A stretch of DNA of 38,492 bases. Source: a virus. The stretch spans positions 1 through 38,492 of the IMG/VR virus record IMGVR_UViG_3300020165_002639, one strand, 5' to 3'. This document shows positions 255 to 23,579 of the stretch, in pieces. Under the pieces are notes generated by a model that did no database searches, was not told the origin of the DNA, and saw only the letters and a program-made list of their open reading frames with translations. How positions within the stretch are numbered: position 1 is the stretch's first letter; each line of letters opens with the position of its first letter. The position numbers and the translations under genes were made by a program.

Positions 255-262
255 TATTTATT
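255..262 (-). promoter_or_regulatory. T4-like late promoter octamer AATAAATA
   Basis: The minus strand reads AATAAATAC, and the final A of the octamer is 7 bases from the A of the start codon at 248. With T4 geometry (+1 about six bases after the octamer), transcription would start about one base before the ATG. Confidence 0.6.
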
Positions 263-1052
263 TTTTTTCTGCTGGGTCTAGATCGTTTGTAAACTTGTCT
301 TCTGAGGGTATTTCCACTTCTTCACCCATTTCGTCCTCGTCATCAAACTCTGGGTCCAACATTTCAACTTCACCGTCTGTGTCTAATTCGTCGTCTGCTT
401 CTTTGTCGTCTGCTTCTGCATCTGCAAGAACTTCTTGTTCTGCTGGTGCCTCGGCCTGTTCAGCGTCTGCTATGATTTCAGTAGTTTCTGGAGTCTTGAT
501 GAGAATGTTTGATGATTCTTCATTGTAAACTGCTTCATTGTCTGAGATTGTGTTGTAAAGTTCAACCAAGGCAGTGTCTTCTGCGCCTTTGATGTACTCC
601 GCGATATCCTTAGTGATAACTTCTCTGAATGATTTTGAGTCATATGTTTGTTCTTCTTTTTGTTCCGTCTTCAGTTCCGCCAACTGTGCTTCTAACTCTG
701 CTATCTTGTCTAGTCTGTTGACCTCTTCGTTGACTTCTTTCTTGATTGAAGTGGCAATGGAGTCATCTGCGTCTGATTCTTTGATTGCTTTTGTTATCAC
801 AGATTCCGCTTTTGGCTCTTTCGTGATTGATTCAACCAGTGCTTCTGCTTTCTTTGAATGTTTCACCGGTTCAACATACTCCTTGATGCCTGCCAGTTTG
901 GCTATGTCGGCCAATGTTACTTCTTTGTCATCTAGCACTTTAGGTGCTTTGCCTGCCGCTTCCATTAATTGAGCTCTTTCCTCTTCTGGAGTTACATTAC
1001 TCATTGCGTTTAAACGTGCTACTAGGTCTCTGAAACTTGGTGTTGTGCTCAT
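258..1052 (-). CDS. Acidic virion-region protein, unknown
   Basis: A 264-residue protein with no recognised enzyme domain. Residues about 1-60 are helical with a Leu/Ala pattern. Residues about 105-130 (from VNEEVNRL) look like a short coiled coil. The last 80 residues are extremely acidic, dominated by Asp and Glu, before a basic PAEKK end. An LME-A motif near residues 29-32 fits the (L/I)xE prohead-protease consensus of T4. Acidic tails of this sort occur in head scaffold and core proteins, but I cannot assign a T4 homologue. It has its own late promoter (1059-1066) immediately before the ATG. Confidence 0.8.
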   Translation of the reverse strand: MSTTPSFRDLVARLNAMSNVTPEEERAQLMEAAGKAPKVLDDKEVTLADIAKLAGIKEYVEPVKHSKKAEALVESITKEPKAESVITKAIKESDADDSIATSIKKEVNEEVNRLDKIAELEAQLAELKTEQKEEQTYDSKSFREVITKDIAEYIKGAEDTALVELYNTISDNEAVYNEESSNILIKTPETTEIIADAEQAEAPAEQEVLADAEADDKEADDELDTDGEVEMLDPEFDDEDEMGEEVEIPSEDKFTNDLDPAEKK

Positions 1053-1058
1053 ATGAAG

Positions 1059-1066
1059 TATTTATA
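1059..1066 (-). promoter_or_regulatory. T4-like late promoter octamer TATAAATA
   Basis: A perfect T4 late consensus on the minus strand. The spacing to the ATG at 1052 is 7 bases, the same as for the gene starting at 248. The predicted transcript has about one base of leader. Confidence 0.7.
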
Positions 1067-1078
1067 TTTGTTTTGTTT

Positions 1079-2956
1079 TTATTTAAGACGTTGTTTAAGG
1101 TTCACCGCAAGTTTTGATTCGTATGCCATGCCCTCGGTGTTCATGAACTTGGTGTATTTGTCCTGTAGGCCTGCCACGTGCCCTAGATCCTTGCCTGAAC
1201 TTAACCTAACCTTGGCATCTGATAGGTCTTTTTCTATCATTTTTGCCAGTTCATCGTTGCCTGAATCCTGTGCCATCTCTAGTGCCGTGTTCATTGCATT
1301 CACTGCCGGTATTGAATTGTCTATAGCGTCGTTGATCGAGTTCACTCCAGCCAAACCTGCAACAATCACGCCCGCCATTGCTAGACGTTTGCCCCATTCT
1401 CGGATGCCTTCGTCCAATGCCGCTTCTCTTAATTTGTCGTAGTTCTTTGAAAGGTATGCCCTCGCCACCCTCTCGTCTGATGTCTTGAATGCTGACTTCT
1501 CGTGTTTGTCCAACACGTCATAAACCATTTTGCCATCCTTGCCCCTGTACATTGACACGTAGGGTTTGATGGTTGCCTCTTCATTTGTTTCTTTCCTGTT
1601 CTCTTTTGCGATCTCTTTCTCCACCTCGTTCACTTTCTTCTTGAGGATCCTCATCATGCCAGGTTTGGTGTCAACGTCCGCTGTTTTAGTTTCTTTGGAC
1701 AGTATCTCATCTAGATGTTTTTGTATGACACCTGCGTGTTTCTGCATCAATGACCCGTCTAGTTCTTCCCTGTATGGATTCAGTTTCTGGTAGTCCTCGT
1801 AGTGGTAAACTGCCTGTAAGTAGTCCGCCGCTAAATTCAATTTTGTCTGTACCCATCCTTCTAGATCATCACCCTTGTTGATCATGTCAATCAATTCAAT
1901 TGCCATCTTGGCAGTCTGGTACAACTGTGATTTGCTCATGTGTCCCTCGCCCGCGTCTTCCGAAACTGATTCAGACGCTTGTACTCTTGAAACTTTTTTC
2001 TGCAATGGCGTGCCTTCGAAATCCTGTTGGAACACCAACATGGCCGACGCTATGTGTGGATCATCATCTATCATATCTAGCACGGCTCTTATCGTCTTCA
2101 CAGTGAAGTCTGAACCTGATACATCCTCTAGCCCGCCTGTGTAGTGCGTGGCGTGTTGTGAGAAATCTGAGGCTTGTCGATGTCCTTCATCATTCATCAG
2201 CATATCTTCATCGCCGAATTTTTCCTCCACACCCAACACATCACTTGCAAAGTCATCTATGTTTTGTGTGGCATGTGCTTTCTTCAGGTATTCTTTGATT
2301 TTTGGAATAAATTTATGGTATTGATCCTCTATGGCACTTGGATCATCGCCGATTTCTTCAACACCATCTAGTGCCATTGAAGAATAATCATTTGCTGTGT
2401 CAATCAACCACTTCTTGAACTGCTGTCTCTCCTGTGGTGTCAAAGGAGTTTTGTCCACGTCGCCGTATTTCTCAACGTTGTCCGCATATTCATCACTATT
2501 TTCAAAATCAAAATACTTGTCGCCCTCGTCCTCGTTGGCTGTCTTCAGTGCGTCAGCAACGTCTGGTTGCTGTGACAACCCTTTTTTAACTTTCTCGATT
2601 GTGTTTGATGCTCCAGTGTAGTTGTCTTTGTATCTCTTGTCAAAAGCAATACCTTTTGCCATTTTAATCTCTTTGTCTGTGGCAGGTGTGTCTGTTCCCT
2701 CTGACATGCCGTCGTCATCGTAAGTGCCCGCCTTGGAACCCGCCGTGTAACCGTGTACACTTTTCACATAGTTTGATGCCAGGTCAATCTTCTTGGCCAC
2801 CCAAGATTCCATCTCGGCCGCGTCATCTATCATGTTGTGTATCTTGATCGCGTGTGTGCCAATCTTCAACAATTGGTTCAAGGCCATTCCTGCCTCATAC
2901 GTGTCCGGCTTTGGCTCCGGCTTCTGCATCATGTGTGATAATTCGTTGAACTTCAT
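1079..2956 (-). CDS. Large virion-region protein with duplicated helical domain
   Basis: A 625-residue protein of unknown function. It carries two diverged copies of one helical domain at about residues 24-72 and 344-388. Both have the pattern xAIxxxxMIxxxxxxExWVxxKxxLAxxYxxxVxxY, so the gene probably contains an internal duplication. Residues about 70-340 are acidic and low in hydrophobics. A Gly/Ala-rich hydrophobic stretch near residues 530-550 (MAGVIVAGLAGV) could be a membrane or fusion-type helix. An LREA site just before it fits a prohead-protease cut. The N-terminus MKFNELSHMM fits the shared M-K-x-x-E-L pattern of this cluster. Its start lies one base past the stop of the upstream gene, so translation is probably coupled. 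Confidence 0.85.
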   Translation of the reverse strand: MKFNELSHMMQKPEPKPDTYEAGMALNQLLKIGTHAIKIHNMIDDAAEMESWVAKKIDLASNYVKSVHGYTAGSKAGTYDDDGMSEGTDTPATDKEIKMAKGIAFDKRYKDNYTGASNTIEKVKKGLSQQPDVADALKTANEDEGDKYFDFENSDEYADNVEKYGDVDKTPLTPQERQQFKKWLIDTANDYSSMALDGVEEIGDDPSAIEDQYHKFIPKIKEYLKKAHATQNIDDFASDVLGVEEKFGDEDMLMNDEGHRQASDFSQHATHYTGGLEDVSGSDFTVKTIRAVLDMIDDDPHIASAMLVFQQDFEGTPLQKKVSRVQASESVSEDAGEGHMSKSQLYQTAKMAIELIDMINKGDDLEGWVQTKLNLAADYLQAVYHYEDYQKLNPYREELDGSLMQKHAGVIQKHLDEILSKETKTADVDTKPGMMRILKKKVNEVEKEIAKENRKETNEEATIKPYVSMYRGKDGKMVYDVLDKHEKSAFKTSDERVARAYLSKNYDKLREAALDEGIREWGKRLAMAGVIVAGLAGVNSINDAIDNSIPAVNAMNTALEMAQDSGNDELAKMIEKDLSDAKVRLSSGKDLGHVAGLQDKYTKFMNTEGMAYESKLAVNLKQRLK

Positions 2957-2957
2957 T

Positions 2958-3368
2958 TTAGTTAAATCCTAAGTGTGTTACTTCTGGATATTTAGCCATG
3001 ATTTTCCTTGCTATCTCGTTGTGTGCTTTGACCATCTGGTTCATGTGACCCTCTGGCTTGCCACCTGATATCATGTTGCCGTCCCTTGTGGCTGGTTCTT
3101 CTGGTGATCTCTTGCCAATGTTCTTTTGTAACCATTGTGTGGTCCTTGCTATGAATTCTTTTGCTGGCACAGGACTCTGGTCCTCGAAATCCGGATTGTA
3201 TCCAAGTGCGTACAAGAACTGTCTCATACTGGCGTTGCTCATGTATGGGCTCTCCACTTCCTTGTCGTCCTGGTATGCCTTTGGGAATGTCCATAGATTT
3301 TTCTCTGTTGGATGCTTGTGGTATGCGATCATTTCTGCGCCTTCTCTGATGAATTCTTGTGCCCTCAT
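2958..3368 (-). CDS. Putative internal head protein with capsid-targeting-like N-terminus
   Basis: A 136-residue protein that begins MRAQEFIRE-GA. This closely resembles the T4 internal-protein leader (consensus like MKTYQEFIAE-A), which directs proteins into the prohead and is cut after the Glu by the gp21 protease. The mature part has a helical, polar composition with no enzyme motif I recognise. The C-terminal half (KAHNEIARKIMAKYPEVTHL) is a likely helix. A late octamer (CATAAATA) ends 6 bases before the ATG and there is no ribosome-binding site. The function after packaging is unknown. Confidence 0.85.
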   Translation of the reverse strand: MRAQEFIREGAEMIAYHKHPTEKNLWTFPKAYQDDKEVESPYMSNASMRQFLYALGYNPDFEDQSPVPAKEFIARTTQWLQKNIGKRSPEEPATRDGNMISGGKPEGHMNQMVKAHNEIARKIMAKYPEVTHLGFN

Positions 3369-3373
3369 ACCAA

Positions 3374-3381
3374 TATTTATG
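3374..3381 (-). promoter_or_regulatory. T4-like late promoter octamer CATAAATA
   Basis: The octamer ends 6 bases from the A of the ATG at 3368. T4 geometry would place +1 on the start codon itself. The motif overlaps the stop codon of the upstream zinc-ribbon gene. Confidence 0.6.
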
Positions 3382-3538
3382 CGGCCTCGTCTTCGTATCT
3401 ACAGTGTTTACACACCTCTATTTGATACTCCCTGCCGTCGTAATCCTGCTCTGTCCTGTACAATGGACCGTCGTGTGCGTCGTTTCCGCAGTTGAGACAC
3501 TTCACTATCCATTCTGTCTTAAGGACTAATGGTTCCAT
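3377..3538 (-). CDS. Small zinc-ribbon protein
   Basis: A 53-residue protein, MEPLVLKTEW to YEDEAA, with two CxxC knuckles: CLNC at residues 14-17 and CKHC at 43-46. This is the arrangement of a four-Cys zinc ribbon. The start overlaps the stop of the upstream gene as TAATG, which supports translation by coupling. Small phage zinc ribbons often bind nucleic acid or partner proteins, but nothing here fixes the role. It sits inside the putative internal-head-protein cluster but lacks the shared N-terminal leader. Confidence 0.8.
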   Translation of the reverse strand: MEPLVLKTEWIVKCLNCGNDAHDGPLYRTEQDYDGREYQIEVCKHCRYEDEAA

Positions 3539-3804
3539 TATGCTAATGGGCCGCCAAACAGGCTCGTACCTTTCAATTTGTGTGCACCTTTGGCTGTGCC
3601 ATCTGGATTCTTGGGTTGCACTACTTTTGGTAATCTAGGTGCCCTTGTTCCAGATCGGCCCGGTGATCCCGAATAGGCCTTTGAGAATCTGTCTTTGCCT
3701 ATGGCAATGTGTGGACTGACCACACTTGCTATGTTTCCTGCACTGGTGGCGCCCGCAGTTGCCTGCTCTTGCACCCTACGTATGATTACTTCGTTGATCT
3801 TCAT
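3538..3804 (-). CDS. Putative small internal head protein, basic
   Basis: An 88-residue, Gly/Ala/Pro-rich basic protein. The start is placed at ATG 3804, giving MKINEVIIRRVQEQ. This fits the cluster's shared N-terminal pattern, puts a GCTAAATA late-like motif 8 bases upstream, and makes a 4-base ATGA overlap with the upstream gene. A longer version starting 33 bases upstream is possible but loses these features. A VQE-Q site near residue 13 could be a protease cut. The remainder looks unfolded (SGSPGRSGTRAPRLP), as expected of a DNA-contacting internal protein. Function unknown. Confidence 0.75.
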   Translation of the reverse strand: MKINEVIIRRVQEQATAGATSAGNIASVVSPHIAIGKDRFSKAYSGSPGRSGTRAPRLPKVVQPKNPDGTAKGAHKLKGTSLFGGPLA

Positions 3805-4418
3805 GCTGGGGTATTTAGCCTGTGATACGATGACCAAAATTGCAGACCCTCTTCCTGCAAATAAATTCTACCGGGCCTAACTTTACCAATGTGCCAAATA
3901 CCATATTTTCTGCTGACAGTCATTTCCATGGTAAAGTTTCCTCCTCTCCTGCACATTAGAATGTCGTCCGGCCAGTGCTCCTTGCCTGAAACCAAAAACT
4001 CTTTAGTAAAATAGGGTGGGTACGACTGTCGATTTAACAGTTGGCGGTACGACTGTGATAAGCGAGATCTGTCCATCTTCTGAAAACGGTACAGTCTTTT
4101 CCAGTTTTTTTCCTGTAACAAACAATCTGGCAACAGGTTTATTCTATGGAACATGATCCACGAATACTTCGTCATAAATCCGTTACTGTAATTGTTGTTA
4201 TCATTTTCAACTTGAATTGTAATGCTTTTGCCAAGATACTTTTCCTCTATTTCTATAAAGAAAAGTTTTTCCGGATATTGGAAGATCTTGGCGGTCTTTA
4301 TTTTAATGCTATCAGATAGAATTATTTCTGCCACGAGATTTTCACCACTATGTATTCGTATGACAGCATCGCGTTTGTATCTGTTGTAAGTGAAAGCGAG
4401 TGCGAGAATGTGCTTCAT
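3801..4418 (-). CDS. Unknown AT-rich protein within head-protein cluster
   Basis: A 205-residue protein with no family I can name. It alternates beta-like segments (ALAFTYNRY, EIILSDSIKI, LFFIEIEEKYLGKSITI) and ends with aromatic-rich strands (RRGGNFTMEMTVSRKYGIW). This suggests a beta-sandwich such as a carbohydrate-binding fold. It may be distantly related in design to the protein at 8528-9070, but I cannot align them by eye. Its DNA is AT-richer than its neighbours: the 60 bases from 4141 have 20 G+C, and the 60 from 4561 have 36. It also lacks the cluster's N-terminal leader. It may be a recent insertion. The 4-base ATGA overlap with the next gene shows it is integrated into the operon. 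Confidence 0.75.
   Translation of the reverse strand: MKHILALAFTYNRYKRDAVIRIHSGENLVAEIILSDSIKIKTAKIFQYPEKLFFIEIEEKYLGKSITIQVENDNNNYSNGFMTKYSWIMFHRINLLPDCLLQEKNWKRLYRFQKMDRSRLSQSYRQLLNRQSYPPYFTKEFLVSGKEHWPDDILMCRRGGNFTMEMTVSRKYGIWHIGKVRPGRIYLQEEGLQFWSSYHRLNTPA
3812..3819 (-). promoter_or_regulatory. Variant late promoter octamer GCTAAATA
   Basis: This differs from NATAAATA at the second base. Its distance to the ATG at 3804 is 8 bases. It lies inside the upstream coding sequence (3801-4418), so it is weaker evidence than the intergenic copies. Confidence 0.4.
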
Positions 4419-4428
4419 GCTGAAATAA

Positions 4429-5643
4429 TTATTTGGATTTCTTGCGTCCGCTTTTCATGTTGGCACACCAGTGGTACATCTTGGCCTTCTCGCCACTGCT
4501 GTTTTTTGCTCTTTTACGCAGTGCTGTGACAGATCCGTTGCAACTGGCACCTGATCTTTTGACCCTGCCAGGCCTGCTCTTGCCCTTCTTCTTGCCGTCC
4601 GCGAAGTTCTCGTTGAACTCCTTCCAGTCTAACTTCAATTTTTTCACGTTCATGTATTCACCGCCAACTGGCACATCCTTTGTGGCGTTCTGTTTTGTGA
4701 TAATACCAACGCCAGCGGCCTCCTTCTTGGGCCTACCGTGTTTGTTGTGCTGTGCCCACGCCAGTGCGTATGCCCCAGACTTGCCGAATTTCTTCTTCAG
4801 TGCTTTGACCTGTTTCTCCCTGCCTGGTGGTGCCTCTTCTTCTATGTCTTGAGGTGGAACAATTTGTGCCTTTATGGAATTAGCACCTGCTTTCTTATGT
4901 CCCCAGAAACGATGGTGTCCATCGATGACTTGGTAACCGTTCTTGTATTTTCTTGCAAGTATAGGTCCCATGGGTTTTTTACTTTGTACAGCCTTTGCTA
5001 TTTGATCCACTTTGGCCATGCTCTTAGGGTCTCTCATCTTGTCTTCGGGTTCGAACCCAACCAATTGTTTAATAGGAATGTTGACTTGTGGGCCTGTGGC
5101 TTTGTATTTTTCCACGCCGATTGCACCAAAATATTTTGGGTCTGTTGACAGTTTTATTTTGTTTTCGTTTGCTCTGTTGTTGCCCTTGTTCTTGAAATCA
5201 TATCTGTTGTTTGGACCAACACCTGGTTTGTGTATCAACCCCATTGTGTCTGCCGTGTGTGGCATTATTATGAATTCAGTTATCGGCATCTTGGCATCTG
5301 CGGCCGCTTGTTTGATCTGGTCTAACTTTCCTTTGGCATTTGCATCACCTCTGGCGGCGTTTTGTTTTATTGTTTTCCATTCAGTGTCCATGTACTCCTG
5401 CCATGCCGCTGGACTCATGCTCCGCAAAGGCGTAATTTTATCACCGCCAGCGGCTTTGGTTTTTGCATCTTGTCTAGGATATTGTTTTAAATTCGTTGAT
5501 GTGAAAATGTTTGGTTCTGCAGGATTTGGTCTTTTTCCCATTGCTCTTAATTCTGGACTGTCCAACAAGTAAGGCATGACTGCTTTTGCCTGTCTTAATG
5601 CATTCCAGTCTATTCTCTCTTGAACTATATCTCTTATCTTCAT
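4429..5643 (-). CDS. ParB/sulfiredoxin-like domain protein with basic Cys tail
   Basis: A 404-residue multidomain protein. Residues about 190-262 form a ParB/Srx-like fold: an IPIKQLVGFEP strand, a helix of the AKVDQIAKAVQSKKPMGPI type, and the signature VIDGHHRFWGHKKAG. Some phage ParB-like domains have nuclease or ATPase activity. After this come a GKSGAYALAWAQHNKHG segment and a very basic tail (about 350-404) with isolated Cys residues (ASCNGSV, MYHWCANMK). I recall related tails in marine T4-like phages. The N-terminus MKIRDIVQE-R fits the cluster's capsid-targeting-like pattern. The role is unknown. A packaged DNA-binding or nicking protein is one inference. Confidence 0.8.
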   Translation of the reverse strand: MKIRDIVQERIDWNALRQAKAVMPYLLDSPELRAMGKRPNPAEPNIFTSTNLKQYPRQDAKTKAAGGDKITPLRSMSPAAWQEYMDTEWKTIKQNAARGDANAKGKLDQIKQAAADAKMPITEFIIMPHTADTMGLIHKPGVGPNNRYDFKNKGNNRANENKIKLSTDPKYFGAIGVEKYKATGPQVNIPIKQLVGFEPEDKMRDPKSMAKVDQIAKAVQSKKPMGPILARKYKNGYQVIDGHHRFWGHKKAGANSIKAQIVPPQDIEEEAPPGREKQVKALKKKFGKSGAYALAWAQHNKHGRPKKEAAGVGIITKQNATKDVPVGGEYMNVKKLKLDWKEFNENFADGKKKGKSRPGRVKRSGASCNGSVTALRKRAKNSSGEKAKMYHWCANMKSGRKKSK

Positions 5644-5870
5644 TTTTTCTTCCTGCCCGCACAGTGGGCCTTCTGTGAGAATCCCTTTGGGTTGCTACAG
5701 TTTATGGACTTCTTGTATTTCTTGCTCCAGCCTTCTACCCTATACGGGTATGCCATCATGGAATGGTATCCCATACTTGCTCTGCCCTTGGCCCTTCTTT
5801 GCTGTTTCTTAAGTATATTGTCCACGTCAGGGTGAACATACTTTGTGGCCAGTACCTCCCTGATCTTCAT
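5640..5870 (-). CDS. Small basic protein with shared Cys motif
   Basis: A 76-residue, strongly basic protein. It begins MKIREVLATKYVHPDVD, which fits the cluster's N-terminal pattern, although I see no clear Glu cleavage site. The middle has KKQQRRAKGRASMGY, and the end has INCSNPKGFSQKAHCAGRKKK with two Cys residues. It overlaps the next gene by 4 bases (ATGA). The basic, Cys-containing tail resembles in style the tail of the protein at 4429-5643, suggesting both bind DNA or the same partner. No function is assigned. Confidence 0.75.
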   Translation of the reverse strand: MKIREVLATKYVHPDVDNILKKQQRRAKGRASMGYHSMMAYPYRVEGWSKKYKKSINCSNPKGFSQKAHCAGRKKK

Positions 5871-5871
5871 T

Positions 5872-6057
5872 TTACAGATCTTTCAGGGATGACAATTTAT
5901 CTTGTGCGTGTGCCAGTGCTTCCAGTTTCTTTTCCGCAGTAACAACATAGTCTATGTGTTCTGCTACACCGATTGGTTTTGCCATGAAAGTTCTTAGGTC
6001 CGCTTCTGCCACAGCAACGTCGCCTTCTAGTTTTTTTATGAGTGCTTCTTTTATCAT
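5872..6057 (-). CDS. Short helical protein, unknown
   Basis: A 61-residue protein (MIKEALIKKLEGDVAVAEAD to SSLKDL) predicted by eye to be almost wholly helical, with a heptad-like Leu/Ala/Val pattern. It could be a two-helix coiled coil. A late octamer (6063-6070) ends 6 bases before the ATG and no Shine-Dalgarno sequence is present. One base separates its stop from the start of the following gene. Probably a minor structural or morphogenesis protein. Confidence 0.7.
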   Translation of the reverse strand: MIKEALIKKLEGDVAVAEADLRTFMAKPIGVAEHIDYVVTAEKKLEALAHAQDKLSSLKDL

Positions 6058-6062
6058 GTCAA

Positions 6063-6070
6063 TATTTATT
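6063..6070 (-). promoter_or_regulatory. T4-like late promoter octamer AATAAATA
   Basis: The octamer ends 6 bases from the ATG at 6057. It lies in the 15-base gap between this gene and the stop of the superoxide dismutase gene. Confidence 0.6.
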
Positions 6071-6072
6071 CT

Positions 6073-6627
6073 TTATTCTGTTGCTCTCAAAGTAATCACA
6101 CCACAGGCCAATCTTTCACCTGCGTTTCCAGTTTTTAGACTTTCGGCGTCTCCGCCCTTGCCTAGGTCATCCTCGTCTTCATGCACTACAAATCCTCTAC
6201 CTATCACAGATCGTTCTCCGATCAGATCCACTCTCTTTGCTTCTATTGTGAACTTGGCAGTCCCTGATTCGTCTGCTGTGATATTGCCAAGATCGCCCAC
6301 GTGGCCTTCGTTGATGTCACCGTGATCAACTCCGTCTGGGTTGTAGTGTCCGCCCATGCTCTTACAACCATCTGACATGTCGCCAAACTCGTGTATGTGG
6401 AATCCGTGAAGTCCAGGCTTCAGTCCTGTGATGGTACCCTTTACTAGTGTTGACGTTCCTGATGCTTGTATAAGCAGGATAGACCCCTTTACAGAGTCAG
6501 AATGCTCCAATATACACTGTGCCACTGTTGTTTCCTGTGCTTCGGTAATTGCATTTACTTTACTGCAACTACACTCCTTTGCCTTGGTTCTGGGACAACT
6601 TGTTTCTGTGAATTCTAATGCTCGCAT
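6073..6627 (-). CDS. sodC: Cu/Zn superoxide dismutase with capsid-targeting-like leader
   Basis: A 184-residue Cu/Zn superoxide dismutase, which converts superoxide to oxygen and hydrogen peroxide. All metal ligands are visible: H77 and H79 (GFHIHEFGD), H94 (GGHYNP), H102, H109, D112 (HVGDLGN) and H149 (GFVVHEDEDD). The disulfide pair C88/C175 and the active-site Arg R172 (GERLACGV) are also present, so it should be active. Instead of the secretory signal normal for bacterial SodC, it begins MRALEFTE-TS. This matches the leaders of neighbouring putative internal head proteins. Residues 10-35 form a linker with four Cys (C11, C19, C21, C38 region). A late octamer is 9 bases upstream. The inference is that the enzyme is packaged in the virion head rather than exported. 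Confidence 0.95.
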   Translation of the reverse strand: MRALEFTETSCPRTKAKECSCSKVNAITEAQETTVAQCILEHSDSVKGSILLIQASGTSTLVKGTITGLKPGLHGFHIHEFGDMSDGCKSMGGHYNPDGVDHGDINEGHVGDLGNITADESGTAKFTIEAKRVDLIGERSVIGRGFVVHEDEDDLGKGGDAESLKTGNAGERLACGVITLRATE

Positions 6628-6635
6628 TGTGCGAG

Positions 6636-6643
6636 TATTTATT
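6636..6643 (-). promoter_or_regulatory. T4-like late promoter octamer AATAAATA
   Basis: The octamer ends 9 bases from the superoxide dismutase start at 6627. It lies across the stop region of the upstream 69-aa gene, so superoxide dismutase is expected to be expressed late. Confidence 0.6.
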
Positions 6644-6848
6644 TGTTTTTGGGCATTGGGTTTTCGCCAGTGAGTCTAGGTTGTGCGAACCATAGTTTGA
6701 ACCACTCTTGTGTGCCCGGTTTGATGTTGTGCTTTCTCTGATACTGTGATTTCTGTGTGCCAATGTAGGATAGGTTCTCGCCCATTGAACTTTCCGTAGA
6801 TAGTTTATCTACGCCTGCCAACTGTTTGATCCTCTCTAGTTCGTCCAC
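6639..6848 (-). CDS. Small conserved phage protein (GTG start)
   Basis: A 69-residue protein beginning MDELERIKQLAGV and ending GENPMPKNK. The start codon is GTG at 6848 and overlaps the stop of the upstream gene as TAGTG, so translation depends on coupling. The segment HNIKPGTQEWFKLWFAQPRL looks like a conserved helical motif that I associate, from memory, with marine T4-like phage structural regions. No catalytic residues are visible and the function is unknown. Confidence 0.75.
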   Translation of the reverse strand: MDELERIKQLAGVDKLSTESSMGENLSYIGTQKSQYQRKHNIKPGTQEWFKLWFAQPRLTGENPMPKNK

Positions 6849-7027
6849 TAGATGGTCCAGTCCTTCATCTGTTGTTTTGTAGGTTTGTGTGCCTTTACTT
6901 TTTCCACCTTGCCACCTTTGGCTAGGAACTTCTTCATCTTCTCGTCTAGTTCTCTCTGTAGTTCCTGAGGTGTCTTGGGTATTTCACCTGTTGCGTATGG
7001 TCTATTGATCCCGCTGAATTTTGGCAT
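6848..7027 (-). CDS. Small conserved protein, 59 aa
   Basis: ATG at 7027 to TAG at 6848 gives a protein that begins MPKFSGINRPYATGEIP and ends KQQMKDWTI. It is basic and helical in the centre (ELDEKMKKFLAKGGKVEKV). It overlaps the end of the upstream nucleotidyltransferase gene by 26 bases and the following GTG start by one base. It has protein-like composition and fits the overlap style of the operon. Function unknown. I recall FLAKGGKVEK-type motifs in small proteins of marine myoviruses. Confidence 0.7.
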   Translation of the reverse strand: MPKFSGINRPYATGEIPKTPQELQRELDEKMKKFLAKGGKVEKVKAHKPTKQQMKDWTI

Positions 7028-8183
7028 AGTCTTCCAGTCCTTTCTGAACTTTGTTAAGTGAGTCTCTGTTTGCTTGATATAGTATTCCGTAACCTCCGGC
7101 CGCCTGCCACTTCTGTATGTTGACTGGCCTGTCGTCGATTAGGATGTTGGGTGTACCTGTGCCCTTGTCTTTGGCATAAGTTTCTTTCCTACCAGTGACA
7201 ATTATATTGTCAGGTTGTTCGATGTTATTTGAAATCCATACTTTTTTATACTTGGCACTGTTATCATGGTCACCCCTCAATGGTGACGTGTTAATTGAAA
7301 ACTTACCACCTGTGAATTTCTTCACCATTTCTATCAGTGCATCTGCTGTTGGGAATTTTGGTAGCACTGCGAAGAAGTCTGTGCCAGTGATTCTATCTAT
7401 GACTTGTTTCTTCAAGTCCTTTGTTTTGTCGTTTGTTAATTCCTTCCAGTGTTCAACACCATAAAGGAATTCAACTCCACCAAAGAAGTCTGCTAGGACT
7501 CCGTCCATGTCAAGATATACGATTGGCTTTGCATCTTCCATATCCTCATTATACAACTTTTTGTTGTTCTCGTCAACTGTCTTACCAAACTGGTCCTGTA
7601 TCTTGTCGTAAAGAACTTTACCTTTGTCGCCACCCATTATGATCTTGCTGAATTCGTGTTCCTGTCCCTTCATTGCAAGTTCTCTGGCCTTGGATGCAGA
7701 AACACCTGTGATGTCACTTGCGTCTGGATCACGTTGTCCTGCACTGACAACTTGAATGCTGTCAAATGTGTATTCAACATTTCCAGACTTGGTTGGTTTT
7801 CCGTTGTACTGATTTAATAATTTTTGGAATTCCATTACTCTGTCGTCGCCTGCAACCATTATCACTTTTGTTCTACCTTCCTGCTCAAGCACCTTCATCA
7901 CTTTGATTATAGTGTTTGCCCTGATATCTCCAAAACTTAATTTAGGATCCGATTGGAAATGTTGTCTCATGTAACTTAATTTTGTTGTGAAATCTATTGG
8001 ATCTTTAGCAGTGCCACCTGTGTGTGCTAGGAACACATACCCCTTGCCATTTACCTTATTGGCAACAGATTGTACTTTCTGTATTAACTTCTCGTGTCCT
8101 ATTGTGGGTGGATTGAATCGGCCAAAGGCAAATACTGCGGTTGAACGATCGTCCTCTCTAAGAAACAGTTCCCTGAGATACAT
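7002..8183 (-). CDS. Nucleotidyltransferase-HAD phosphatase fusion, putative head cargo
   Basis: A 393-residue two-domain protein. Residues about 14-200 are a cytidylyltransferase-like (HIGH superfamily) domain: GRFNPPTIGH (21-30) holds the T/HxGH site, and GVSASKAREL (160-169) matches the ISxxxxR motif. Such enzymes transfer a nucleotide onto a phosphorylated substrate, as in NAD or CDP-alcohol synthesis; the substrate is unclear. Residues about 220-385 are a HAD-like 5'-nucleotidase-type domain with the VYLDMDGVLADFF nucleophile motif (D225, D227) and a late ILIDDRPVN acidic motif. The N-terminus MYLRELFLRE-D fits the cluster's leader pattern and is followed directly by the enzyme. Upstream overlap is 26 bases. 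Confidence 0.85.
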   Translation of the reverse strand: MYLRELFLREDDRSTAVFAFGRFNPPTIGHEKLIQKVQSVANKVNGKGYVFLAHTGGTAKDPIDFTTKLSYMRQHFQSDPKLSFGDIRANTIIKVMKVLEQEGRTKVIMVAGDDRVMEFQKLLNQYNGKPTKSGNVEYTFDSIQVVSAGQRDPDASDITGVSASKARELAMKGQEHEFSKIIMGGDKGKVLYDKIQDQFGKTVDENNKKLYNEDMEDAKPIVYLDMDGVLADFFGGVEFLYGVEHWKELTNDKTKDLKKQVIDRITGTDFFAVLPKFPTADALIEMVKKFTGGKFSINTSPLRGDHDNSAKYKKVWISNNIEQPDNIIVTGRKETYAKDKGTGTPNILIDDRPVNIQKWQAAGGYGILYQANRDSLNKVQKGLEDYAKIQRDQ

Positions 8184-8514
8184 CGTATTCGCCTTGCTTT
8201 ATGTTTTCTAATTCTCTATCTGATATAATTTGTGCAACCTTTTGTCTGGTCTCTTTTGGGAACATTGTTGCAACGTCGTCCTGTGTTGTGCCAAATTCTT
8301 TAACATATTCCTTTGCGGCATCATCAACAAGATACATCCAAAGTTTCTGTGCCTTGTCATGATCATACACATTCTTTTTTAGTTTCCTACGGATGTTGCT
8401 TATGATTGGCATGAAACGTCTACGATACAGTTCTTCGTTGTTCATAATGTAAGAATCCAGCTCGTTTACAGCGTCTGAGTCTATGTTTTCTGAAATAAAT
8501 TGTGATGCTCTCAT
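8158..8514 (-). CDS. Putative internal head protein
   Basis: A 118-residue protein that begins MRASQFISE-NI, a clear match to the capsid-targeting leader pattern with a Glu cut site. The mature part is helical and basic in the middle (ELYRRRFMPIISNIRRKLKK) and contains KAQKLWMYLVDDAAKEYV. I recall similar proteins in cyanophages and other marine T4-like phages. A late octamer lies 8 bases before the ATG. The gene overlaps the next by 26 bases, so the nucleotidyltransferase fusion is probably co-transcribed. Function after packaging unknown. Confidence 0.8.
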   Translation of the reverse strand: MRASQFISENIDSDAVNELDSYIMNNEELYRRRFMPIISNIRRKLKKNVYDHDKAQKLWMYLVDDAAKEYVKEFGTTQDDVATMFPKETRQKVAQIISDRELENIKQGEYDVSQGTVS

Positions 8515-8521
8515 ACAAGCG

Positions 8522-8529
8522 TATTTATT
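8522..8529 (-). promoter_or_regulatory. T4-like late promoter octamer AATAAATA
   Basis: The octamer ends 8 bases from the ATG at 8514, and no Shine-Dalgarno sequence fits between. It probably drives the internal-protein and nucleotidyltransferase genes. Confidence 0.6.
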
Positions 8530-22388: not shown

Positions 22389-22660
22389 TATTTAACGAAC
22401 TGATCTAACATGTTGCCATAGGTTTTATGGAAATGTTTGTATATGGTATCGTAGGAAATATGATCAACCAGATTGGGTTGGCCGGGCACTTCACACTTCA
22501 ACACTTCTTTGTCCACGAGATCTAGGACCACACCGGATTGCACCAACTTGCCTGGGCCGATGCTCTTCTTTGAAAGTTCAACAAGCTCGTCGTATGTGCC
22601 CTTCATGTTTAGACTGTACTTCACAATCATATATCTTTTCTTGTTGTGCTTACTGCCCAT
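22388..22660 (-). CDS. Small protein downstream of clamp loader, unknown
   Basis: A 90-residue basic protein (MGSKHNKKRYMIVKYSLNMKG to MLDQFVK). It overlaps the gp44 stop by 11 bases. In T4 the gene after 44 is 62 (small clamp loader subunit), followed by regA. This protein is much shorter than gp62 and shows no RegA motif I can recognise. An alternative start at Met11 (MIVKYSL) is possible. It is probably a replication-linked or regulatory protein by position only. Confidence 0.65.
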   Translation of the reverse strand: MGSKHNKKRYMIVKYSLNMKGTYDELVELSKKSIGPGKLVQSGVVLDLVDKEVLKCEVPGQPNLVDHISYDTIYKHFHKTYGNMLDQFVK

Positions 22661-23579
22661 TTGATAACCTTGCTAATTTGATCATGACACTGGCTAGATT
22701 TATCTCAGGATCAGCAACGAAAGAGTGATCAACCAGTCCTTGTTTGATTATCAATACAGCCTTGTCTTGGTTGTCCTCATCTTTAGATATGATATCCAAG
22801 TTGTCGTACAGCCATCTGTATATCTCCTCACACTCCTCTGGTCTGGCTTGGGCACAAACAAGTTTCCTTGCTTCTTGTATCTTGCCCTGTTTAAACAGAT
22901 CAACCATTTGCAATCTGTAATCCTGCTGTCCTGAATCACCAGTTGCTGGTGGCATCAGTTTGCCATCTCTACAATTCTGTTGTATCATGTTGATACATTT
23001 TCTTAGATCAGGATAACTTGCTTTCACATAAGTGTCTAGTACTTCTATGTCTGGTTCCATCTGTTCTGCAATCAGTATCTCTGCTGTCCTTGCCGTGAAT
23101 TCATTTTTATCAATTGTTTCCATGTGGAAGCCTTGACATCTGCTGTGCAGTGCAGGAATAACTCTGTTGGGGTAGTTGCAAGTCAATATGAATCTTGCTG
23201 ATGTGTGATACATTTCCATGACGCCACGTAGTGCCGCCTGCCCATTTGGACTCATGTAGTCTGCCTCATCCAGTAATACGTATTTGTAATCACCAAATGG
23301 CATTATCTGTACGAAGTTATTGATCTTCTCTCTAACTGTGTCCACAGAATTTTCTCTTGAAGCATTTATTTCCAGTATGTCATAACTGCTGACATCTAGT
23401 TCTTGAAACAGTACTTTTGCTAGTGTGGTTTTACCCACTCCAGGTGCACCACTCAATAACAAATGCGGAATTGCTTTGTCATTGATCCATGTTTGTATTT
23501 GACTTCGCTGTGCTTCGTCCCTTACAACATATTCTTTCAATTGTTTCGGTCTGTATTTTTCTACCCAAAGTTCTTTCAT
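22650..23579 (-). CDS. 44: Sliding clamp loader large subunit, T4 gp44-like
   Basis: A 309-residue AAA+ ATPase of the clamp loader family, which opens and loads the DNA polymerase sliding clamp. The motifs are the RFC-box start LWVEKYRPKQLKEYV, Walker A GAPGVGKT (44-51), Walker B LLDEADYM (103-108) and sensor/Arg finger HSRCQ (145-149). The length matches T4 gp44. The start overlaps the stop of the 54-aa gene (ATGA). The protein needs a gp62 partner and gp45 clamp, neither visible in this window. It lies downstream of the formate dehydrogenase promoter. Confidence 0.95.
   Translation of the reverse strand: MKELWVEKYRPKQLKEYVVRDEAQRSQIQTWINDKAIPHLLLSGAPGVGKTTLAKVLFQELDVSSYDILEINASRENSVDTVREKINNFVQIMPFGDYKYVLLDEADYMSPNGQAALRGVMEMYHTSARFILTCNYPNRVIPALHSRCQGFHMETIDKNEFTARTAEILIAEQMEPDIEVLDTYVKASYPDLRKCINMIQQNCRDGKLMPPATGDSGQQDYRLQMVDLFKQGKIQEARKLVCAQARPEECEEIYRWLYDNLDIISKDEDNQDKAVLIIKQGLVDHSFVADPEINLASVMIKLARLSNGQ

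Follow-up and report, generated by a model that had tools for sequence, protein, structure and literature searches.

Why do eight neighbouring and otherwise unrelated genes of one marine virus start alike, and what would that common start do for their products? The genes lie in IMG/VR record IMGVR_UViG_3300020165_002639, part of the genome of a T4-like marine myovirus; the complete record of 38,492 bases (the window) was analysed. Thirteen genes occupy the interval 1079-8514, all on the - strand, and eight of them begin with M-[KRY]-x-x-[EDQ]-[FILV]. We conclude that the locus very probably holds genes for head-packaged cargo, taking head cargo in general, and our verdict is that it represents a variant of the T4 internal-protein system. 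The eight genes, referred to below by their start coordinates, are as follows (aa, amino acids; a slash marks a known or predicted cut).

8158..8514, - strand: 118-aa helical protein; leader MRASQFISE/ (residues 1-9 = 8488-8514)
7002..8183, - strand: NMNAT-like/cytidylyltransferase with NT5C-type nucleotidase; leader MYLRELFLRE/D (8154-8183)
6073..6627, - strand: predicted Cu/Zn superoxide dismutase (SodC); 29-aa leader MRALEFTETS-CPRTKAKECSC-SKVNAITE/A (6541-6627)
5640..5870, - strand: 76-aa protein; leader-like MKIREV, CSNPKGFSQKAHCAGRKKK module at the C-terminus; no conserved cut site
4429..5643, - strand: ParB-like multi-module protein; leader MKIRDIVQE/ (5617-5643)
3538..3804, - strand: 88-aa protein starting MKINEV; leader MKINEVIIRRVQE/ (3766-3804), then QATAGATSAGN
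2958..3368, - strand: 136-aa protein; leader MRAQEFIRE/GAEM (3342-3368)
1079..2956, - strand: 625-aa protein; leader-like MKFNEL; no conserved cut site

A shared start and a conserved Glu step

The start pattern occurs in 2.3% of 873 proteins from three long relatives (G001, G002 and G003) and the phage S-CREM2, compared with 8/13 in the interval (binomial p = 9e-11). This p value is a guide only, because the expression was picked post hoc on this window, and the background estimate is conservative, because homologous clusters were counted among the 873 proteins. The pattern is absent from genes 3377-3538, 3801-4418, 5872-6057, 6639-6848 and 6848-7027. For gene 3804, the start is the ATG at 3804 and not the TTG upstream at 3837. 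A preliminary description, made from the letters of the window, had listed these eight starts, and all are indeed present on the - strand. It had also reported a trailing Glu in several of them; we find one clearly, with a hydrophobic P3 residue, in six (SodC, NMNAT-like, ParB-like, 3804, 3368 and 8514), and no conserved one in the MKIREV and MKFNEL families.

Relatives, in which gene calls were made mechanically, provide the more telling evidence; a nucleotide search against cultured phages gave no match. The SodC protein matches Pfam Sod_Cu (PF00080, E=1.5e-45) across the whole profile, and the segments HGFHIHEFGD, GGHYNP, GHVGDLGN and VVHxDxDDLG, with metal-ligand residues, were seen by reading; judged by these signatures, 6073-6627 is a Cu/Zn superoxide dismutase (SOD), as a predicted enzyme. 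The gene was found in 97 viral-contig stretches, 80 of which were retained for comparison. Its first six residues vary with the pattern mostly kept (MRALEF, MKAIEF, MRASDL, MHYREF, MKITEL, MRFTEM, MRLSDL and others), and in all 41 unique forms a C-x-[RK]-T-[KRF]-[AS]-x-x-C-x-C box is followed by [ILVM]-x-E directly before the SOD domain. The residue after this Glu step is A in 16 forms, S in 10, D in 6, Q in 6 and G in 3.

The other families behave similarly. For 7002-8183 (PHROG cytidyltransferase E=7e-47; Pfam NT5C 1e-6), LFLxE/D is retained in 17/17 among the homologues listed, and in the 8158-8514 family, Glu9 and a hydrophobic P3 are found in 15/15 homologues with a variable P2. The leader of the 3538-3804 family ranges from about 9 to 14 residues, and the Glu always stands directly before a conserved xATxGATSAGN block. 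The 2958-3368 family has [IVLM]xE ahead of a GA[EDST] block in 17/17 contexts, some of them fusions in which the upstream sequence differs; this count leaves out one contig-edge match, judged to be chance. Homologues of 1079-2956 keep the leader pattern (MKINEL, MKIKEF, MKFKEF, MRLKEI). The ParB-like assignment of 4429-5643 comes from Pfam ParB_N (3e-4, under the curated cut-off) and PHROG ParB-like (4e-7). In AlphaFold models, residues 1-9 of the 8514 protein are disordered and its fold begins at residue 13 (pLDDT 84), while residues 1-8 of the 3368 protein are disordered and its first strand is at 11 (pLDDT 76); neither model has a PDB match at E <= 0.001. The 8514, 3368, 2956, 6057, 3538 and 4418 proteins received no function from Pfam, PHROGs or NCBIfam, not every library having been applied to each protein. 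By these alignments, the start pattern is under selection: leader sequence and length vary in the relatives, and the hydrophobic-x-Glu step persists at the edge of the mature domain. That the pattern, rather than an exact sequence, is conserved tells us more than the window could by itself.

In this locus, TAAATA precedes six start codons (8514, 6627, 6057, 3804, 3368 and 1052), ending 5 to 8 nucleotides (nt) upstream; chance would place this hexamer in 1.1% of 22-mers on the - strand.

8522..8527, - strand: TAAATA box of gene 8514, 7 nt before the ATG
6636..6641, - strand: TAAATA box of the SodC gene, retained in most unfused SodC relatives
6063..6068, - strand: TAAATA box of gene 6057, late-promoter-like
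3812..3817, - strand: TAAATA box of gene 3804, late-promoter-like
3374..3379, - strand: TAAATA box of gene 3368, 5 nt before the ATG
1059..1064, - strand: TATAAATA box of gene 1052, 6 nt before the ATG

Leader genes without a box overlap or abut their upstream neighbour. The boxes suggest late expression of the locus, which is supportive and not strictly defining, as T4 internal proteins themselves are not expressed exclusively late. Since the boxes lie 5-8 nt from the start codons, late messages may be almost leaderless, given T4 late-promoter geometry. A sigma-70 promoter scan performed no better than shuffles and was dropped for the T4 late box.

The shared start could instead come from the base composition of an AT-rich marine phage, from its preference among translation starts or from a common ancestral start, with no targeting involved. 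The starts are indeed A/T-rich and rich in Lys/Arg codons, and the expression is short as well as post hoc. We nevertheless consider this very improbable in view of the 8/13 against a 2.3% background, the presence of the pattern both at late-promoter starts and at genes overlapping a neighbour, a Glu step that stays invariant at the domain border although indels occur, and the association of the T4 register with virion proteins in S-CREM2, to which we now turn.

The T4 capsid-targeting register and virion proteins

In the T4 record, IPII and IPIII begin MKTYQEFIAE/A, IPI reads MKTFKEFTSTTTPVSTITE/A and gp23 FLTE/A; these cut points are established T4 knowledge. The first ten residues of IPIII suffice, with targeting depending mainly on residues 4 and 7 and processing on 8 and 10 (PMC9026906, a review of Black's work). 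Three window leaders (MRASQFISE, MRAQEFIRE and MKIRDIVQE) show the T4 spacing shortened by one residue, and the others fit partly. The exact T4 register is found in nucleotidyltransferase homologues of cyanophages, which share the start MKxFxxFLxE: syn9 (MKKFSAFLSEA), P-SSM2 (MKSFSQFLTE), P-SSM4 (MKKFSAFLKEA), S-H34 (MKGFSNFLIEA) and ACG-2014d (MKKFSDFLSEA). The homologue of jumbo phage Paride has no leader, and in that of S-PM2, as annotated, the T4 register was not seen. A search for the leader beyond the window, proposed in the preliminary description, located it in many relatives and in cultured Kyanoviridae.

Published virion proteomes allowed us to relate this register to packaging. S-CREM2 virions are reported to contain 52 phage proteins, 24 structural and 28 others (PMC10665884). 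The T4-derived register marks 5/28 of the non-structural virion proteins, 0/24 of the T4-type structural proteins and 1/167 of the undetected ones (p = 2.4e-4); the expression was taken from the literature, and the S-CREM2 sequences had also been seen before it was run. The five positive virion proteins are the SAM hydrolase gp6, gp13, the kinase gp14, gp136 and the cytidylyltransferase gp154. An expression of the type used in the preliminary description fails to mark S-CREM2 virion proteins (1/28 vs 7/167), and because it shows no such enrichment we regard it as unfit across lineages. A looser expression (7/28 vs 4/167) was discarded, having been selected after viewing S-CREM2.

These statistics rest on one phage and are supported by a second, S-SZBM1, whose cytidylyltransferase is the sole enzyme listed apart from structural proteins (PMC9146016). 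This protein begins MRFRQFIIEA, and the S-SZBM1 capsid protein has ILTE/AAP. Nucleotidyltransferase homologues were detected by mass spectrometry in purified cyanophage virions in both reports (PMC10665884, PMC9146016), and these homologues carry a T4-type N-terminal leader, the removal of which is not described in the available parts of the two reports; a third report (PMC9602691) also gives virion detection of a homologue. A link between capsid targeting and cyanophage virion enzymes looks unreported in the literature searched, where co-mention concerned T4.

Other leader-like starts were encountered. The S-CREM2 virion protein gp12 (L131:7704-10313), annotated as Cas9, has a leader-like RFASFMAEA at about residues 18-26; because Pfam gives no match, both the annotation and the start codon are doubtful and need checking. 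P-loop kinase-like proteins begin MKTFAELQEG (L130:7235-7903, Melnitz EXVC044M) and MRINEILEG (G003:70300-70908), so cultured methylophage relatives may have additional enzymes with leaders.

Capsid site, fusion proteins and scaffold motif

Cleavage of such leaders calls for a gp21-type protease, whose absence from the genome would have spoken against the packaging proposed in the preliminary description. We found gp21 (PF03420, E=4e-27), together with gp23, in the 196-kb relative G001, the one long relative with head genes. It has the same cluster, with orthologues of 8514, NMNAT, SodC, 3804 and 2956, and its gp21 retains the GExxHP and GVSSRG blocks of T4 gp21. Neither gp21 nor gp23 was found in the other 25 relative fragments; the missing gp21 is uninformative there because gp23 is missing too.

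The G001 major capsid protein (MCP) has a 41-residue propeptide-like stretch ending YLSE/QATAGATSAGNVATLNRV, and at its likely cleavage site it reads YLSE/QATAGATSAGNVA. The 3538-3804 protein reads VQE/QATAGATSAGNIASVV, that is, VQE/QATAGATSAGN compared with LSE/QATAGATSAGN in the MCP. The ungapped score between the two is 68, against a maximum of 51 in 60 shuffles. The likely capsid cleavage position is L-x-E or alike in 80 related loci, and with MCPs and the 3538-3804 family pooled, P1 is Glu and P3 is L/I/V/M in 56/56 unique contexts. Since the 3538-3804 protein matches the MCP at its likely maturation site, the probable cleavage place of the shell protein has a counterpart in one leader protein of the cluster.

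This match also bears on whether the N-termini are signals for another destination or partner, for example a membrane or protease of the host or a compartment resembling the phage nucleus. An N-terminal signal would be expected on SodC because bacterial and lysogenic-phage SodC is normally exported, and the closest cultured matches include the sodC of Gifsy-2 and Fels-1. The leader, however, has no long hydrophobic stretch, and the T4 register and the capsid-site match both point to the head, which leaves such a signal with very little probability.

As separate observations on SodC, the CPRTKAxxCxC box ahead of the SOD domain matches no known function; SodC matches occur in 6/50,697 phage records (Gifsy-2, Fels-1, two Acinetobacter phage records and two others), all at <60% identity; and the Cu/Zn SOD family is present in many marine viral contigs (L020-L099).

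In some relatives, SodC lies within longer proteins, joined to parts that are ParB-like or NMNAT-like or to small basic modules; in locus L047, the EFIIMP..RANE module of the ParB-like protein sits between leader and SodC. These fusions, too, have [ILVM]xE ahead of the SOD part, and ELTE/S, DMTE/V, EVTE/A and NVQE/S follow it (by reading). Such an arrangement would fit polyproteins cut in the prohead. Small Cys-/Lys-rich modules are common to several different proteins (5640-5870, 4429-5643, L020-L099), resembling a mobile module set; recurring ones are KGFSQKAHCAGRKKK, GASCxGSVTxLRxxAK..KMYHWCANMKxGRKK and APPGxEKxVKxLKKKF.

A second motif may link the locus to the prohead core. The gene directly before the capsid gene is, by position, the putative scaffold gp22, and its C-terminus is [IL]xxLAG[IL] or close to it in 75/75 unique forms (L140-L219). 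This motif occurs in 11/78 cargo-locus proteins vs 4/635 elsewhere (p = 1.3e-8), where the count of 11 includes orthologues repeatedly and two probable hydrophobic stretches. The VAGLAGV matches of the 2956 family are probably a hydrophobic stretch and not the motif. Two window proteins carry the motif, both without a leader:

258..1052, - strand: 264-aa acidic protein; scaffold-tail-like LADIAKLAGI; no capsid-targeting leader
6639..6848, - strand: 69-aa protein; begins VDELERIKQLAGV, scaffold-tail-like motif

The motif of 258-1052 is retained in the orthologues of G001, G002 and G003, and orthologues of 6639-6848 read MEDLERLKKLAGI in G001 and G003. In one G001 protein (L106, G001:62525-63589), a GASM block is preceded by ELNRITKLAGLGE/ in place of the leader. 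We infer that the LAG-motif proteins and the scaffold may share a binding partner in the prohead core. A wider proposal, that the T4-type leader and the scaffold-shared [IL]xxLAG[IL] are two interchangeable head tags, alongside prohead-cut cargo polyproteins and a decoy or cement protein with the capsid site, is tentative, and we lean slightly against it.

The same findings could mean that the leaders do target the prohead core, but that most of the proteins help assembly or form part of the core (as scaffold helpers or capsid cement), acting in the producing cell or remaining in the head rather than being delivered as effectors. The 3804 protein bears the mature N-terminus of the capsid protein, the 1052 and 6848 proteins have the scaffold C-terminal motif, and several proteins have no known domain. 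Yet SodC and the NMNAT/nucleotidase are enzymes without an obvious assembly role, and NMNAT homologues remain in purified virions (PMC10665884, PMC9146016). We therefore rate an assembly role for most of the proteins as unlikely, though a serious contender; because it overlaps with the cargo explanation, the confidences given to the two add up to more than one. Our confidence in the delivery of each individual member is lower than that in the cargo explanation as a whole, because assembly may be the role of 3804 and of the LAG proteins.

Several observations weigh against a packaged-cargo locus. No gp21 or gp23 lies within the 38-kb window, a fragment without head genes, and two of the eight leader families, MKIREV (5870) and MKFNEL (2956), have no conserved Glu step or cut site. 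The one-residue-shorter register of the window is met by few genes, with a weak enrichment in cargo loci (6/76 vs 7/637, p = 1e-3), and it marks no S-CREM2 virion protein. The lineage has no isolate or virion proteome, virion detection is limited to homologues in cultured phages, and the authors of the S-CREM2 and S-SCSM1 studies left contamination open, carry-over of abundant proteins in CsCl preparations not being excluded. Overall, the head-packaged cluster suggested in the preliminary description is supported by the T4-like register, the gp21 of a relative and the shared capsid site, except that two of its eight members have no conserved cut site.

Two further genes deserve mention. The 59-aa protein 6848-7027 has a SutA RNA-polymerase-binding domain match above the Pfam cut-off (E=2.7e-7) and is possibly a host transcription modifier. 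The clamp loader at 22650-23579 is closest (54%) to PA5oct-group jumbo Pseudomonas phages, compared with 35% for cyanophages.

Proposed route and comparison with known systems

In the route that we propose, late genes would make tagged precursors, the tag being a T4 capsid-targeting type of leader: a hydrophobic residue, two further positions, another hydrophobic residue (in most cases with one more behind it) and x-Glu. The tags would bind the prohead core, the precursors would be enclosed, and a gp21-type prohead protease would cut at hydrophobic-x-E/, matching the type of site in the MCP. The freed cargo would sit among the packaged DNA and be ejected into the next host. It would comprise SodC, the NMNAT/nucleotidase, the ParB-like multi-module protein, several uncharacterized proteins and the small protein with the capsid mature N-terminus. 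On arrival, SodC might remove superoxide, and the NMNAT-like/nucleotidase protein might act on NAD or nucleotides, possibly restoring them. For this virus, core binding, cleavage, packaging and delivery, like enzyme action on arrival, are what we infer from the evidence above.

If so, the leader would let one read off which proteins T4-like marine phages carry in their heads. It would offer an explanation for virion enzymes that published proteomes could not separate from contamination, and it predicts exact cut sites that are checkable in existing mass spectra. Delivery as protein would mean that sodC, NMNAT and similar "auxiliary metabolic genes" may act at the first moments of infection and not late. 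If the scaffold-tail motif is a true second address, it would be relevant to the way in which cargo reaches the prohead core. What appears new here is SodC as predicted cargo, the fusions with the same putative site at domain joints, and the candidate second motif [IL]xxLAG[IL].

Among known systems, the chlorovirus PBCV-1 encodes a Cu/Zn SOD, thought to be active on superoxide early in infection, which recalls SodC; PBCV-1 is a eukaryotic virus, and we know of no T4-type leader on its enzyme. The SodC fusions and the ParB-like protein are multi-module and may resemble polyvalent proteins, the multi-domain phage polypeptides for which packaging and injection have been predicted (PMC5512222, Iyer et al. 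2017). They differ in that their domain joints bear prohead-protease-type sites; polyvalent proteins were described as showing a paucity in cyanobacteria, and superoxide dismutase is unmentioned among them (PMC5512222).

The cyanophage NMNAT-like/cytidylyltransferase (T4-GC 190) has a homologous domain (phrog_3041, phrog_395), an N-terminal leader and published virion detection (PMC10665884, PMC9602691, PMC9146016), whereas the window protein is fused to an NT5C nucleotidase and has a slightly different leader register; the available parts of these three reports make no mention of a targeting leader. T4 Alt, a virion ADP-ribosyltransferase with propeptides at both termini (PMC9026906), is likewise a head-carried enzyme, but the enzymes here are others, and Pfam and PHROGs gave no ADP-ribosyltransferase domain among the leader proteins scanned.

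Compared with the T4 internal proteins, most leaders of the window lack one residue (hydrophobics at 3 and 6, Glu at 9), and the predicted cargo includes SodC, an NMNAT/nucleotidase and fusions with internal sites. Like IPI, IPII and IPIII, the locus combines 9-29 aa N-terminal leaders, spaced hydrophobics and a Glu step with unrelated mature parts, and a gp21-type protease is seen in the relative G001. The SodC leader has the same layout as that of IPI (MKTFKEFT...TITE/A).

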